Assembly (NCBI GenBank): GCA_001829785.1
Contig: MICF01000003.1
Span: 172,586 to 236,585 of the forward strand
Length of the DNA stretch: 64,000 bases
Direction: 5' to 3'
Origin: Sulfurimonas sp. RIFOXYD12_FULL_33_39
GTDB taxonomy: Bacteria > Campylobacterota > Campylobacteria > Campylobacterales > Sulfurimonadaceae
Positions within the stretch are counted from its first letter, which is position 1. Each line of letters begins with the position of its first letter. The notes beneath the pieces are model-generated. The model did not search any database. It saw only the letters and a list, made by a program, of their open reading frames with translations, and was not told the DNA's origin. This document shows, piece after piece, positions 20,947-25,455 of the stretch. A program made the translations under genes and the position numbers.

Positions 20947-21162
20947 TCAATACTGCTTTTTGTAAGTTTTTAGTTTTTTTACATCTTTAAGTCTTATTGC
21001 AGATGAGAAATTTAAATGCTCATTAATGTCTTCACCGTTATCAAACTTTTTATCAAACTCTTTGGCTGTTATCTTTTTCATATTTTTTTCTGTATCTACG
21101 AAATCAATACCATGTTTTTCTTTATGGATTTGGTTTTTGTTTTCATCATATTCAAATTTCAT
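20947..21162 (-). pseudogene. fused BrnT/BrnA toxin-antitoxin remnant
   Basis: A 71-codon frame whose two parts come from different proteins. Residues 1-25 (MKFEYDENKNQIHKEKHGID) match the start of BrnT, a RelE-like RNase toxin. From residue 28 it reads MKKITAKEFDKKFDNGEDI, the start of the BrnA antitoxin. The BrnT catalytic body is gone and the BrnA C-terminal ribbon-helix-helix region is also lost after KLKTYKKQY. The simplest reading is an in-frame internal deletion joining brnT to brnA, followed by loss of the brnA 3' end. A short BrnA-like peptide could still be made from the internal ATG. Confidence 0.7.
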
Positions 21163-21251: not shown

Positions 21252-21611
21252 CTAAGACTTTTTATCCAGTTTATTTATCATATCATTGATAGCTTTTTCA
21301 AATTCATCAAAATCCTCTCCCAAAGTATCCCATAAAACCTTGTCATCTACTCCAAAATAGTGATGAGTTAAAACATCTCTCATTTTAGCTATTTCACTCC
21401 ATGGAATTTCAGGGTATTCATCTGTAAGTTCTTTTGGAATATTTTTTACTGCTTCTCCGATATTTTCAAAAGCTTTTGCAACGGCATAAACCTTTTCAAG
21501 ATTTTCTGTAAACTCTTCATAGGTAACATTTTCAACAAACTTTTTAATATTTTTGCATTCATTTTTTATGTCTTCAATATAAAGCTTATAATCTCTATTG
21601 CTTTTAAACAT
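21252..21611 (-). CDS. hepT: HepT-like HEPN ribonuclease toxin
   Basis: HEPN-domain protein of 119 aa (DUF86/HepT). The Rx4HxY RNase motif reads RDVLTHHY near residue 78, preceded by the typical FENIGEAVKNIPKEL and IPWSEIAKMRD. It overlaps the MntA-type gene by 8 nt, the standard order antitoxin then toxin. In studied HepT/MntA pairs MntA inactivates HepT by AMPylation of the Tyr of this motif; that Tyr is present here. It lies in the accessory island beside the cassette array. Confidence 0.85.
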   Translation of the reverse strand: MFKSNRDYKLYIEDIKNECKNIKKFVENVTYEEFTENLEKVYAVAKAFENIGEAVKNIPKELTDEYPEIPWSEIAKMRDVLTHHYFGVDDKVLWDTLGEDFDEFEKAINDMINKLDKKS

Positions 21612-21900
21612 AGCTGATATCCTTTTGAATATAGCTTTTTATTTGTGGTTTTAATGTCTCATCTCTGACCAAATCAATTTTTTTATGAAAAAAATCTTCA
21701 AGTTGTTTCGTTAATTTAAGATATTTAAACATTGATAATTTTTTATCTTTTTCAATTTTATATAAAATGTCTATATCACTATTATCATTTGCTTCATCTC
21801 TGGCAAAGGAACCGAACAGACCGATAAATTGTATTCCGAATTGATTATGATAATATTCTTGATTTGATTTTAAATAGTTTAATATATTTTGTTTATTCAT
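21604..21900 (-). CDS. mntA: MNT-domain nucleotidyltransferase antitoxin MntA
   Basis: A 98-aa minimal nucleotidyltransferase. The catalytic GSFARDEANDNSDIDIL (GSx10DxD) is intact, followed by a later Asp in KKIDLVRDE, so it should be able to AMPylate its partner. It lies directly upstream of hepT with an 8-nt overlap. A 33-codon frame precedes it and ends two bases before its start codon, perhaps in the same operon. Confidence 0.85.
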   Translation of the reverse strand: MNKQNILNYLKSNQEYYHNQFGIQFIGLFGSFARDEANDNSDIDILYKIEKDKKLSMFKYLKLTKQLEDFFHKKIDLVRDETLKPQIKSYIQKDISYV

Positions 21901-22004: not shown

Positions 22005-22074
22005 ATCTTCTCTTTAAGTTTTCATAAATTATATCAGATTTAGTTTCAGTAAATACTTTAGTGATATTTTTTTA

Positions 22075-22183
22075 AGATAATGGCAGTGCTGAGCGAAACT
22101 CAGAGATAAGTATAAGAAAGCGTAGCTTTCGTTGGACTTATCGGAAGAGTGAAGAGAGTGTTCGCTCCAGCGACTTGTTATCC
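22075..22183 (-). repeat. attC-like recombination site A (109 bp)
   Basis: An imperfect palindrome of 109 bp, nearly identical over about 80 bp to site D at 24620-24728. Outer arms contain GTGCTGAGCGAAACTC and the matching GAGAGTGTTCGCTCCAG; an inner hairpin pairs GATAAGT and AAAGC with GCTTTC and ACTTATC around GTA. On the minus (cassette) strand it begins GGATAAC, an R''-type core, but the distal core reads ATTATCT instead of GTTRRRY, so that side is probably decayed. It follows the metallopeptidase gene. Confidence 0.7.
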
Positions 22184-22197
22184 GAAGCCGAAGGCGA

Positions 22198-22232
22198 GGG
22201 TAACAAGAACTCGCTCAGCACTTTTGTTATGT
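22198..22232 (-). repeat. truncated attC-like element (35 bp)
   Basis: On the minus strand ACATAAC begins this element, AAGTGCTGAGCGAGTTC lies inside and GTTACCC ends it. It has both core-type ends but lacks the long arms of site A, from which 14 bp separate it. It looks like a collapsed attC or an orf-less mini cassette. Confidence 0.45.
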
Positions 22233-22292
22233 TATCTTGTTCTATATGTCCTTAAAACTTCAACTGCAATCAATAATAATTTAAGTAATACA

Positions 22293-23354
22293 CTATTGAA
22301 ACTCGGGGAGTATCCCATCGCTATTTTTTCCAAAATACTTGGATACAACAGAAGGTCTAATTTTATTCCACACATCAGCAATGATATCTATATATTTCTT
22401 TGAATCTTTACTCTCAGCATCAAAAAATAAATTCATAAACACTGAAACCCCCTCTAAATCATTATACTTTTCTTCATAATATATTAATGATACAAGAAGG
22501 GAATACTTAATCGCTTTTTCATAATCTTGAAAAGTCTTGCCTTCTTCGAAGTGTTTTTTCATATTAGGATTTTTAAATATTTCTATTAATTGAAAATATA
22601 AAAATCTCATTCTTACTGTTGGATTAGGATGAGTACCAGAGACTTTTCCATCATGATATTTATTCTGTTTTCCATGAAAATAAAAAAATAAATAATTTAA
22701 TCCTGCAGATAAGTTCCAGAGAGTTGAACATTTGATAATAGCATCTTTTTTAAGGAATTCAATAATTAAATATGTGGCTTCATAATCTGCAGATAATTCA
22801 CATGCATGTTTTATAGAAGCATCATGAGAAGAAATTTGTTGATTATTATTATCACTACTTTTTTGACTTTCATACCACTCTGAAATATTGTTTTCTTTCT
22901 TTGTGTCTGAAAATTCGGAATATATAGCTCCATGACATTGTAAAAGGTGTGCTTGTTCATGTAAGTATACCCAAGAAAGTGAATTTTCAAAATAAGGAAT
23001 ATATGATTCTGCAGGTGCTAACTCATTTGGAATGAAATGACTTTCATTCTCTTGTTCATCACAAAAAACCTTTTTATAAAAATCGAGTCCATTATTGTGC
23101 CATTCATTACTAAAACCAATAGCATTCTGAATAATATCAATGGTTACACCATAAGATATATTAATTACATCACATGTCATATTCTTTGATGAAACATATG
23201 CAATAAAGTCCTTATCTCGGTACCAATAGAATATGAGTTTTTTATCTGTGATATAAATATCATCAGAAGCAAATTCTTTAATTTTGTCAATTACTCTTTC
23301 CCCAAAACTTACTGCATCAGGTATTAATCTATCAGATATTTCAATAGCGATAAT
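22293..23354 (-). CDS. cassette gene: HExxH zinc metallopeptidase-like protein
   Basis: The core, from an ATG at 23180, holds WVYLHEQAHLLQCHG (HExxH zinc site) followed by ACELSADYEA, which offers the third Glu ligand, and then SGTHPNPTVRMRF, a conserved-looking substrate-side loop. The reading frame stays open for 58 further codons upstream, to an ATT at 23354 preceded by TTAGGAG, with protein-like content (ISDRLIPDAVSFGERVIDKI). I therefore propose a 353-aa product with a non-standard ATT start; the conservative form is 295 aa (22293-23180). It has no signal peptide, so it should be cytoplasmic. It lies between attC-like sites B and A. The substrate is unknown. Confidence 0.65.
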   Translation of the reverse strand: MIAIEISDRLIPDAVSFGERVIDKIKEFASDDIYITDKKLIFYWYRDKDFIAYVSSKNMTCDVINISYGVTIDIIQNAIGFSNEWHNNGLDFYKKVFCDEQENESHFIPNELAPAESYIPYFENSLSWVYLHEQAHLLQCHGAIYSEFSDTKKENNISEWYESQKSSDNNNQQISSHDASIKHACELSADYEATYLIIEFLKKDAIIKCSTLWNLSAGLNYLFFYFHGKQNKYHDGKVSGTHPNPTVRMRFLYFQLIEIFKNPNMKKHFEEGKTFQDYEKAIKYSLLVSLIYYEEKYNDLEGVSVFMNLFFDAESKDSKKYIDIIADVWNKIRPSVVSKYFGKNSDGILPEFQ

Positions 23355-23394
23355 ATACTCCTAATATTTGTTATATGAATTTAATTCACTTGTA

Positions 23395-23463
23395 ACATAA
23401 CGGTTGAGGAGAGCAATAGTTTTCCCGTTAGGGTAAACTATTGGCTCCTGCGTTTTGTTATAC
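23395..23463 (-). repeat. attC-like recombination site B (69 bp)
   Basis: On the minus strand it runs from GTATAAC to GTTATGT, the two simple core sites, with arms CAGGAGCCAATAGTTTACCC and GGGAAAACTATTGCTCTCCT forming a long imperfect hairpin around CTAAC. It starts five bases after the stop of the 77-aa gene. Length and layout match chromosomal-integron attC sites. Confidence 0.75.
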
Positions 23464-23467
23464 TTTA

Positions 23468-23701
23468 CTAGTTTTCGCCTCTAACAAAGTCTATGATTGT
23501 TGTTAAACTATCAAATTGTCCTTCCCTTTTTGTGGACATATTTGTTGCTACAATAAAGTTTTCTATTGCTTTATAATCTACAGTGTTTAATTCATTTGTA
23601 TTAAAACTGACCAATAAATCATTAGCTTCTGTTACTTCTTGAGCTGTAATTTCATTTTGATTAATGATTTCAATTAATCTTTTATATTTTTCATTTTGCA
23701 T
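23468..23701 (-). CDS. cassette gene: hypothetical protein (77 aa)
   Basis: A small acidic, probably helical protein of 77 aa (MQNEKYKRLIEIINQNEITA...) without membrane segment, signal peptide or known motif. It fills one cassette: attC-like site C lies 16 bp upstream of its start and site B begins 5 bp after its stop, which is the compact spacing of integron cassettes. I do not recognise a family. Confidence 0.65.
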   Translation of the reverse strand: MQNEKYKRLIEIINQNEITAQEVTEANDLLVSFNTNELNTVDYKAIENFIVATNMSTKREGQFDSLTTIIDFVRGEN

Positions 23702-23716
23702 ATTTGAACCTTTTGT

Positions 23717-23785
23717 GTATAACGTTAATCTTGAGGAATAGTTTCACCGTAGGGGGAACTATTCCTCTCCAAGTACTTGTTAGTC
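23717..23785 (-). repeat. attC-like recombination site C (69 bp)
   Basis: On the minus strand it begins GACTAAC and ends GTTATAC. Arms GGAGAGGAATAGTT and AACTATTCCTC pair around CCCCCTACGGTGA. It has the same length as site B and related arm sequence (AATAGTT/AACTATT). It lies 10 bp after the stop of the DUF6602-like gene. Confidence 0.75.
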
Positions 23786-23794
23786 TTGGAGGTT

Positions 23795-24598
23795 CTAAAT
23801 AAAATTATGAACTTCTGTTTCTGATAATTTTGCATAATACATTCTGTAGCGCTCTTTTGTATTATGGATTGGGAACCAAGCATCAGAAGCATTTTGAGTA
23901 AAACTTGTTGATAAATATGCCACCAAATTACTTATGAAATATGCATGAGATAATTTTTTAATTTCGTAGGAATGCCATATGGGATCGTGACCTAGATTAG
24001 CTAAGGGATGACCACTTTCCCAAAATCTAATAAACATGTTTTCGCCAATTGATACACAATTTATAATACTATTAATATCATTATTGGCTATTTCTTGAAG
24101 TATTTGCAGAACTTCTTCTTCTCTAATACTACCTTTATTATAAACAAAGAGTCCTGCCCAACACTTTTGTCTATCCCCTGAATTTTCACGAATACCTTTT
24201 ACTTCTTTACTTAGTTTTGCTAATACGGATTTTATGCTTTCACCATTTGACAGTTTTGTTTTTACTTCAACAATGGCATTAGCACATTCTGGTGTCACAA
24301 AATGAAGTTCGCCACTTTTATATAAAGTTGGGTTGAATTTCGAAGTAATTAGAATATCTATTTGACCTGAATTTTTTTCTCCATTATTAGTTGAGCTTGG
24401 ATAGCAAACAAAACCAGTGCCAACTCTATATATTTCTGGTAAAAAATCATTCATTACTTTTCTTAGAATACTTTCTTTATGTTCCCCATCTGTAAGCCAA
24501 TGAGATTTTCCTATTAAGTTTCTAACTCTTTTTTCTGAAGTTTTAAGTTCTTCACCAATTGACTTATGATAAGCAAGAAAATCTTGTTGTATTGGCAT
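23795..24598 (-). CDS. cassette gene: DUF6602-like PD-(D/E)xK nuclease-fold protein
   Basis: A 267-aa cytoplasmic protein resembling DUF6602. It carries a nuclease-fold core: an N-terminal Glu-rich helix, SGQIDILI (Asp) and, about 35 residues on, AIVEVKTKL (ExK), the D...ExK arrangement of PD-(D/E)xK enzymes. The opening FLAYHKSIGEELKTSEKRVRNLIG and the GTGFV strand before the Asp fit family members. Such proteins are often found with defence or restriction genes, but no partner is present here. The gene is bracketed by attC-like sites D and C, making it a single-gene cassette. Activity on DNA or RNA is not established. Confidence 0.75.
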   Translation of the reverse strand: MPIQQDFLAYHKSIGEELKTSEKRVRNLIGKSHWLTDGEHKESILRKVMNDFLPEIYRVGTGFVCYPSSTNNGEKNSGQIDILITSKFNPTLYKSGELHFVTPECANAIVEVKTKLSNGESIKSVLAKLSKEVKGIRENSGDRQKCWAGLFVYNKGSIREEEVLQILQEIANNDINSIINCVSIGENMFIRFWESGHPLANLGHDPIWHSYEIKKLSHAYFISNLVAYLSTSFTQNASDAWFPIHNTKERYRMYYAKLSETEVHNFI

Positions 24599-24619
24599 GT
24601 TTTACCTTTATATTTTGTT

Positions 24620-24728
24620 GACTAACGGCAGTGCTGAGCGAAACTCAGAGATAAGTATAAGAAAGCGTAGCTTTCGTTAGACTTATCGGAAGAGTGAAGA
24701 GAGTGTTGGCTCCACTGATTTGTTATAC
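24620..24728 (-). repeat. attC-like recombination site D (109 bp)
   Basis: On the minus strand it begins GTATAAC, seven bases from the stop of the 112-aa repeat protein gene, and ends GTTAGTC. Arms CAGTGGAGCCAACACTC and GAGTTTCGCTCAGCACTG pair imperfectly and an inner stem pairs GATAAGT/GAAAGC with GCTTTC/ACTTATC. It is almost identical in its central part to site A, 2.5 kb away, with equal length. Confidence 0.8.
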
Positions 24729-24732
24729 CCTG

Positions 24733-25071
24733 TTAAACGATCTTTTTAATTAGGAAATGGTAAGTGGCAACGATCTCAGCATCTAGCTCACGTTCCATGC
24801 CTTTGATTGTAAAATCGCTAATTTTTCCGATAGTTTTGCCTGCTCCAAGAGAAGAACCATCACGAACGGTGTCTCCTTTGACATTCAATATAGCTTTTCC
24901 AGCACCTTTTGATGAGCCATCGCGGATAATGCCATCCTTTACATTTCCCAAGGCACTTCCTGCTCCCTTGGATGATCCATTTCGAATGATTCCATCTTTG
25001 ATATTTCCAAGTGCTTGACCAGCACCAAGTGAATTCCCGTCTCTAATCACGCCATCTTTGAAGTTTGCCAT
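24733..25071 (-). CDS. cassette gene: 20-residue tandem-repeat protein (112 aa)
   Basis: A 112-aa protein made of four tandem units of about 20 residues of the form K-D-G-I-I-R-D-G-S-S-K-G-A-G-x-A-L-G-N-V (residues 4-85), then a helical tail (MERELDAEIVATYHFLIKKIV). Alternating beta-prone and Gly-rich segments suggest a short solenoid or roll. Similar IRDGSSLG-type repeat proteins of unknown function exist in other bacteria. It is the first gene of the cassette array on the minus strand, followed by site D. The AT-rich region upstream may hold the promoter of the array. Confidence 0.7.
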   Translation of the reverse strand: MANFKDGVIRDGNSLGAGQALGNIKDGIIRNGSSKGAGSALGNVKDGIIRDGSSKGAGKAILNVKGDTVRDGSSLGAGKTIGKISDFTIKGMERELDAEIVATYHFLIKKIV

Positions 25072-25455
25072 TTCTGTCTCCTGTTTTTTTGATTGGATTG
25101 AAGGTATAACTATTTATTCATACACATTATATACATAGTAACTTAAAAAAATAAAAATAACTTACATGTTAAATGTGTGTTAATTATTAAAATTTAGTAA
25201 AAAATATGACTATTTACAATATTTCTTTATATTACGAAAAAAAATACATATTATTCTTAAAGATATAGTGTGTGTTAAATGTCATATAGAGAAATAACAT
25301 ACAAAAATGTTTGTTAATTGTTAAAAAAACTACATAACAAACACGATGTAGCTTAAACAAAGAAAATAACATGTAAGTAAAAAATGACTTTTGGAGTTAT
25401 AGAAAATCAATAATATTGGGGAGCAAGGATTTATCCTTGCCGATGATAAAAGAGG
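25072..25455. other. AT-rich intergenic region upstream of the cassette array
   Basis: About 380 bp without a credible gene between the first cassette gene and trpS (convergent in orientation to neither). It is very AT-rich and holds two imperfect copies of a roughly 37-bp stretch at about 25153-25190 and 25291-25328, sharing ATAAC, TAAATGT or AAAATGT, TGTTAATT and TTAAAA. In an ordinary integron this side would carry attI and intI; no integrase frame is present. It is the likely site of a cassette promoter. Confidence 0.5.

Follow-up and report, generated by a model that had tools for sequence, protein, structure and literature searches.

A cassette array headed by an attI leader and lacking an adjoining integrase gene beside trpS in a Sulfurimonas genome

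We analysed a stretch of 64,000 nucleotides (nt; "the window") of contig MICF01000003.1 from Sulfurimonas sp. RIFOXYD12_FULL_33_39. Beside trpS, the window carries an array of four minus-strand genes, each followed by a palindrome resembling the attC site of an integron cassette. At the head of the array lies a leader with an attI site and a predicted promoter (Pc), which ends in a stub of the integrase gene, intI (Table 1). A preliminary description of this DNA had reported the four genes and the palindromes where we find them, with the same core ends. The palindrome sizes it gave, 69 and 109 bp, apply to attC1, attC2 and attC3; the fourth site has 158 nt. In what follows, G000 is the genome of the window, other G numbers are other genomes, L numbers are extracted loci and C denotes a contig.

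Table 1. Features at the array locus, in window positions. aa, amino acids; R1 and R2, the attC and attI models described in the text.
Feature	Position	Strand	Description
Cassette array	22075-25110	-	four genes, each then an attC-like site
attI/Pc leader	25104-25399	-	head of array; homology to intI leader on C7, R2 match
Crossover box GTTATAC	25104-25110	-	within leader
attI core AATAAATAGTTA	25107-25118	-	within leader
-10-like TATAAT	25126-25131	-	7 nt before attI core
intI stub	25371-25399	+	intI start codon with some nine codons, of which the second has become a stop; from comparison with C7 intI start
Cassette 1	24626-25109	-	gene 24733-25071, 112 aa; beta-flower repeat protein, Pfam PF21786, 39.2 bits (cut-off 34)
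attC1	24620-24728	-	109 nt; R1 26.3 bits, E 0.0056
Cassette 2	23723-24625	-	gene 23795-24598, 267 aa; DUF6602, PF20247, 61.6 bits
attC2	23717-23785	-	69 nt; R1 53.4 bits, E 7.4e-9
Cassette 3	23401-23722	-	gene 23468-23701, 77 aa
attC3	23395-23463	-	69 nt; R1 64.9 bits, E 2.3e-11
Cassette 4	22081-23400	-	gene 22293-23180; HExxH protein, 295-350 aa depending on start
attC4	22075-22232	-	158 nt; double structure; R' box ATTATCT (degenerate) instead of GTTNNNN
HepT/MntA-like HEPN-MNT pair	21252-21900	-	PF01934, 93.3 bits; PF18765, 50.2 bits; MNT partner PDC-S09, 96.5 bits
BrnT-like remnant	20947-21162	-	PF04365, 23.3 bits (below cut-off 34.5); far end of insertion

To score attC sites we used a covariance model of our own (R1) in place of that of IntegronFinder. 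It was built from 42 attC sites of intI-bearing loci in 14 other genomes of the phylum, none of them G000. Candidates came from a palindrome finder, which was noisy at loose settings; the settings were tightened, and R1 followed. Short sites (67-73 nt) were kept for training. Left out were the sites of 84 nt, duplicates on the reverse strand, candidates that looked like coding sequence, a number of other short sites, and every site from the window or the rest of its genome. Over the 64-kb window at E up to 10, R1 matched attC1, attC2 and attC3, and besides these only the reverse strand of attC3 (E 0.02) and one candidate at E 0.35. Folding of the bottom strand as DNA gave z values of -5.8 for attC3, -3.7 for attC2, -3.5 for attC1 and -6.3 (-6.25) for attC4 (22072-22236). 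Covariance matches to three of the four sites and folding of all four thus agree with the assignment made in the preliminary description. Rfam, at its gathering threshold, has no match in the window.

The crossover points gave a further line of evidence. When an integron cassette is a circle, its first bases complement the R'' box of its own attC. The four cassettes of the window begin with GTTATAC, GTTAGTC, GTTATAC and GTTATGT, and their own R'' boxes read GTATAAC, GACTAAC, GTATAAC and ACATAAC. All four cassettes are complementary at all 16 variable bases, which has a probability of about 9e-10 if the positions are independent. In loci across the phylum, the four variable bases followed this rule perfectly in 52 of 75 consecutive attC pairs and in 15 of 29 pairs of attI and first attC; the means expected from shuffling were 4.3 and 2.2. 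At attI sites that adjoin no intI, the first pair was perfect in 11 of 22 cases, the window included; two of these 11 (L144 and L177) have an altered base in the invariant GTT or AAC.

These results bear on whether the locus is an integron at all. The palindromes stand close behind the genes, as terminators do, and the locus might be a set of unrelated genes with terminator-like palindromes. We give this reading next to no credence: it is rejected by the matches to an attC model built with the window held out, the complementarity between R'' and cassette start in four of four cassettes, and the attI leader.

The leader itself was recognised in two ways. First, on C7 the segment that separates intI from the first cassette aligns with 25106-25399 over 295 bp at 88.5% identity. 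Second, a sequence model of attI (R2), made from 25 intI-adjacent leaders of other genomes that were chosen among the candidates listed, matched the window at 25107-25184 with 42.2 bits (E 6.9e-12); the runner-up in the window scored 9.8 bits. An exact search of genome contigs with a leader string, which is not letter for letter that of the window, gave no match.

Directly after the attI core, 10 of 44 attI modules have a hairpin, about 30 nt long, in which at least seven of the first eight bases pair with the end (L014:6851-6881, L164:1656-1686, L165:1600-1628, L129:8335-8363 and six more loci). Its sequence is often GTTATC...GATAAC, followed by GGGGGC or GGCAG. This hairpin would either lie at the extreme 5' end of the Pc transcript or represent a minimal cassette without a gene.

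Because an attI leader heads the array, the locus is to be read as an integron without intI and not as cassettes dropped at a random site. The latter would be an ordinary CALIN (cluster of attC sites lacking integron-integrases), formed by off-target insertion into an attG-like site beside trpS, with attI never present. Insertion into attG is described in the parts of PMC12444791 and PMC12901181 available to us. Such events may also occur in this genus, as seven of the 32 attC clusters in ten congeners have no attI, and all seven are single attC sites. At the window locus this origin is very improbable: a 295-bp homologue of the intI leader ends within 4 nt of the crossover of cassette 1, and leader and intI stub together reject it.

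We searched for intI in the window and in the genome. With 19 IntI proteins, tblastn (E<=1e-5) found no intI frame in the 64-kb window, which holds the stub only. The only gene of the genome over the TIGR02249 cut-off (265) lies at C7:305607-306497 and scores 396.9 bits. In this gene (L014:5602-6590), the first 25 codons and the remainder are in different frames, with a small insert between them. It adjoins a gene that we take to be sdhE-like (Pfam PF02754), and in the congener G199 intI likewise lies beside an sdhE-like gene. The description of the array as being without integrase is therefore right for the locus; for the genome it does not hold, given the frame-broken intI on C7.

We then compared 30 trpS loci from congeners, own included, two of which (L109 and L121) extend only 823 and 236 bases past trpS. 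The leader was found in two of them, the window and G310, and several congeners have hemerythrin or carbamoyltransferase genes directly after trpS. By trpS, G310 is the nearest relative (94% protein identity). Its junction to trpS is the same as that of the window and leaves no room for intI, and its leader has an internal deletion that removes the intI start codon. The hemerythrin border is also the same (97.5% over 120 bp). Between these borders the content is different: G310 has BrnT (PF04365, 94.3 bits) paired with a CopG-like gene (25.6 bits, short of the cut-off of 28), half an attC, a ParE-like gene (PF05016, 33.5 bits) and a partner without family assignment. The comparison among relatives that had been proposed thus turned up other genes behind common borders. 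Because G310 shares the intI-less junction to trpS, the local intI was probably lost before the two species split, and the content would have changed since. Going by this comparison, cassette turnover with an integrase acting in trans is likely.

Besides its attI module, intI stub and attC sites, the locus has crossover boxes that fit in four of four cassettes; a related species has other content within the same borders, and a single intI is present elsewhere in the genome. We consider it highly probable that the locus is an array of a chromosomal integron from which the integrase gene was lost while the platform (attI and Pc) was kept. In such an array, IntI would insert cassettes one by one at the attI core, and the cassettes would be transcribed from the predicted Pc on the minus strand. 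After loss of the local gene, IntI from the sdhE-linked integron on C7 would serve the platform in trans.

Several points weigh against this reading. No intact integrase was found in the same cell: the sole gene over the TIGR02249 cut-off has a broken frame. In G310, nothing matches TIGR02249 at E<=1e-20. Since the intI of the genome is broken, the system may now be frozen, and activity in trans at present would be no more than a possibility. R1 does not match attC4, whose degenerate R' box has lost its G. In the phylum loci, 14 of 29 first cassettes deviate from the perfect crossover rule, some of them with an unmodelled attC between. The difference between G000 and G310 could in part reflect differential loss from a larger ancestral array. 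In the ten-genome comparison described below, 16 of 41 attI sites have no R1 attC cluster behind them. Finally, the training sets overlap with the survey: three of these 41 attI (in G251, G327 and G405, all intI-linked) were used for R2, and attC sites of G251 for R1.

Some of these points fit a dead relic, in which a complete integron inserted at trpS, intI was deleted, and only decay followed, with nothing added. The degenerate R' of attC4 and the broken intI are expected of a relic. At some other platforms, longer intI remnants (codons 1-65 in L071; also L083 and L091) indicate that intI was lost in place. Cassettes next to attI are normally the newest, however, and G310, with the same intI-less trpS junction, has a first cassette unlike that of G000. 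The perfect crossovers of half of the first cassettes at intI-less attI sites also speak against pure decay, but they do not date the insertions. We regard a relic as unlikely, though it deserves more weight than an off-target origin.

The chromosomal integron that we favour is not the only platform in this genome. R2 found seven attI modules in G000 at E<=7.5e-6, the next candidate having an E of 0.197, and one of the seven is linked to intI. Among 41 congeneric genomes at least 98% complete, own included, 34 had attI modules (E<=1e-3). Traces of intI (E<=1e-20) were present in 21 of the 41, over the cut-off in 15. The counts of this survey are lower bounds, as attC was scored for up to 150 candidates per genome and the attI surveys had stricter filters; one attI (in L171) did not reappear in a later pass. 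G342, with eight attI, and G463, with six, are examples without any intI.

The relation of attI to attC was examined in ten near-complete congeners of one or two contigs each. An attI lay ahead of 25 of 32 attC clusters (same strand, within 6 kb), which hold 80 of the 87 attC sites. The opposite-strand count was 0; in 2000 circular shifts the mean was 0.18 and the maximum 5. All 14 clusters with two or more attC were headed by attI. Seven of the 25 heading attI sites stand beside intI or a broken intI, and 18 do not. Of all 41 attI sites in these genomes, 34 have no adjoining intI. The genus as a whole carries attI platforms scattered over the chromosome, mostly without an adjoining intI. G000 itself also has a lone strong attC (L167:2737-2804, corresponding to G000:C1:270736-270803; 59.8 bits) with no R2 attI module within its 5.5-kb locus.

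To gauge its specificity, R2 was also run across the phylum, where it matched 21 of 150 genomes at E<=1e-5, in 12 of 39 genera. This search missed at least one intI-bearing genome (G010, with intI and no R2 match). Of 397 Campylobacterota genomes, 41 carry intI at E<=1e-50, and these belong to 19 of the 68 genera. PMC8618304, in the part available to us, counts the phylum among those with integrons. The remark in the preliminary description that cassettes are unusual in this phylum is not borne out.

The exact attI core pattern gave 98 matches in 257 billion bases of genome contigs. Among the 80 of these that were listed, 72 were titled with Campylobacterota taxa; the other eight were four contigs of 3.1-4.2 kb and four longer contigs of metagenome-assembled genomes titled 'Proteobacteria bacterium' or 'bacterium'. 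The core of Campylobacterota type was seen on short contigs from bins assigned to Crocinitomix, Flavobacteriaceae, Thiotrichaceae and Gammaproteobacteria (L248, L253, L257 and L259). Misbinning is the likely cause of such cases, although transfer may also occur. Viral contigs contained neither the exact attI core nor a relative of the beta-flower protein.

How the platforms came to be dispersed is less clear. The leader may be a unit of about 250-290 bp that is copied and spreads without intI, seeding new cassette platforms. G432 has three leaders, at three loci, that share 95-98% identity; their left ends fall close to the start codon of intI, and tblastn (E<=1e-5) finds no intI trace at any of the three. 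A fourth leader is 93-94% identical over 219 bp. Close copies also occur in G457 (90-94%, about 211 bp) and in G416 (86-90%, about 243 bp). Because the leaders of G432 are near-identical and lack intI, they are more simply read as copies of the leader alone. G432 is, on the other hand, a draft of about 160 contigs. A single fixed left end for the copies was rejected: the ends vary, with about 86 to 294 bp of leader shared. L128:8487-8683 and L129:8223-8341 are leader copies that, by eye, seem to have an internal deletion between TTAACAMACA-like direct repeats. A tree of leaders had too few sites for a firm history.

The positions of the platforms in relatives bear on the same question. We examined 22 loci of six relatives with homology to the flanks of six G000 platforms, and no attI was found within 1.5 kb (0 of 22 at E<=0.01; best R2 E 0.037). 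Platforms of relatives are thus mostly at different sites, as copying would predict, although the C1 and C7:110284 flanks were each found in only one of the six relatives. An exception is the kinase gene on C9, where G432 does have an array, in the opposite orientation, with its attC inside the 1.5-kb flank and its attI just outside. The region upstream of this FGGY-type kinase gene carries attI arrays in opposite orientations in G000 (L166:4014-4700) and G432 (L132:2641-5636), and it is a possible insertion hot spot. An empty site was found for the C5 platform: in G466 and G327, a distance of 13 bp, measured between alignment ends, separates the DUF2201 gene on its left from the gene without assignment on its right. 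The same two genes flank both the platform and a uracil-DNA-glycosylase gene in G000. Against copying stand the variable left ends and the intI stubs that some platforms keep. We put spread of the leader alone forward as a tentative explanation.

In the cassettes themselves, the distances from gene end to attC are 4, 9, 4 and 60 nt. The cassette 2 protein also matches nuclease models of PADLOC, PD_DExK (64.2 bits) and NucC (40.4 bits), and is PD-(D/E)xK/NucC-like. No family match was obtained for the cassette 3 protein or the HExxH protein of cassette 4 in Pfam, NCBIfam, PADLOC or PHROGs; for the proteins without family, PHROGs and solved-structure searches gave nothing useful. Distant tblastn relatives of the HExxH protein (25-31% identity) occur on six plasmid records, Acinetobacter and Paraburkholderia plasmids among them. 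Its frame is open upstream of the first ATG to about 23345, so the start may be a non-ATG codon. Over 24623-24726, attC1 shows 95% identity to a portion of one attC of the C7 array. Similarly, attC4 is 94.8% identical over 153 bp to an attC without a gene at the first position of the intI-bearing C7 array. This double attC of about 153 nt, an attC nested with an inverted partial copy, is nearly unchanged in at least three platforms of the genome (window 22075-22232, L014:6877-7029 and L164:1680-1837).

Past the last attC, within the same insertion, lies the HEPN-MNT pair, for which no attC of its own was found. The BrnT-like remnant is 72% identical in nucleotides over 72 bp to the BrnT gene of G310. 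The NucC-like nuclease and the adjoining HEPN/MNT pair make up the defence-like cargo of the window. The cargo of other platforms in the genome includes, in two of them, a DS8 antiphage protein (NF053861, 950.3 bits, cut-off 790) and an AbiV protein (TIGR04498, 109.6 bits, cut-off 27), and further a DUF2971 protein (PF11185; PADLOC candidate PDC-S31). Several other cargo genes had no family in NCBIfam and Pfam searches. From these assignments, the arrays look like a store largely of defence genes.

A CALIN is defined by a minimum of two attC sites without an intI next to them. The window array has at least two attC by R1, all in one orientation, and no intI beside them by tblastn, so it was correctly called a CALIN. 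It differs from a complete integron in having no intI beside attI, and, by the attI with predicted Pc and the intI stub at its head, it stands outside the usual picture of CALINs, which the accessible parts of the literature describe without attI. Those parts of PMC8618304 give three origins for CALINs: off-target insertion, intI loss and rearrangement. Xanthomonas CALINs also lie at loci apart from intI (PMC12444791, as far as seen), and CALINs with a putative promoter ahead of the first cassette are reported in the portion seen of PMC12690207. Sedentary chromosomal integrons share attI, a Pc-like promoter, an attC array and the crossover rules with the window locus, and the C7 locus, with its broken intI, is of this kind; the window locus differs in having no intI, and the genome in having seven attI modules.

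Fragments of attI away from intI are also known from cassettes of the delta-attI type in class 1 and 2 integrons, where, according to the text available of PMC12901181, the piece is able to recombine. In those, the attI piece is short and takes the place of attC within an array, whereas here a long leader heads separate chromosomal arrays. Within the phylum, PMC10295459 reports In0 and a CALIN in Sulfurimonas autotrophica, probably of the same genus as G000, and two CALINs in Sulfurovum NBC37-1, separate from the integrase as in the window; the part seen mentions no attI for them, in contrast to the window. Among the open-access titles and openings of abstracts that were listed, with most subscription papers outside this scope, we found no literature on attI-headed, integrase-less arrays dispersed over one genome. 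Integrons in the phylum are already published; dispersed attI platforms without integrase look new.

Searching for attI would be a simple rule for finding such platforms, as tools limited to intI and attC would miss them. In Sulfurimonas, and probably in other Campylobacterota, the integron may be a distributed system, a proposal we make with some reserve. The leader would be copied without intI, each copy would be an expressed landing platform for cassettes of largely anti-phage function, and one intI, often later lost, would serve all platforms in trans. In integron theory, one attI stands beside one intI, so that expression is limited to the first few cassettes of a single array. If the proposal is true, several attI/Pc platforms would provide several "first positions", and many captured defence genes would be expressed at once. 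Multiple platforms would also explain how CALINs arise and how they stay useful after the integrase is lost.

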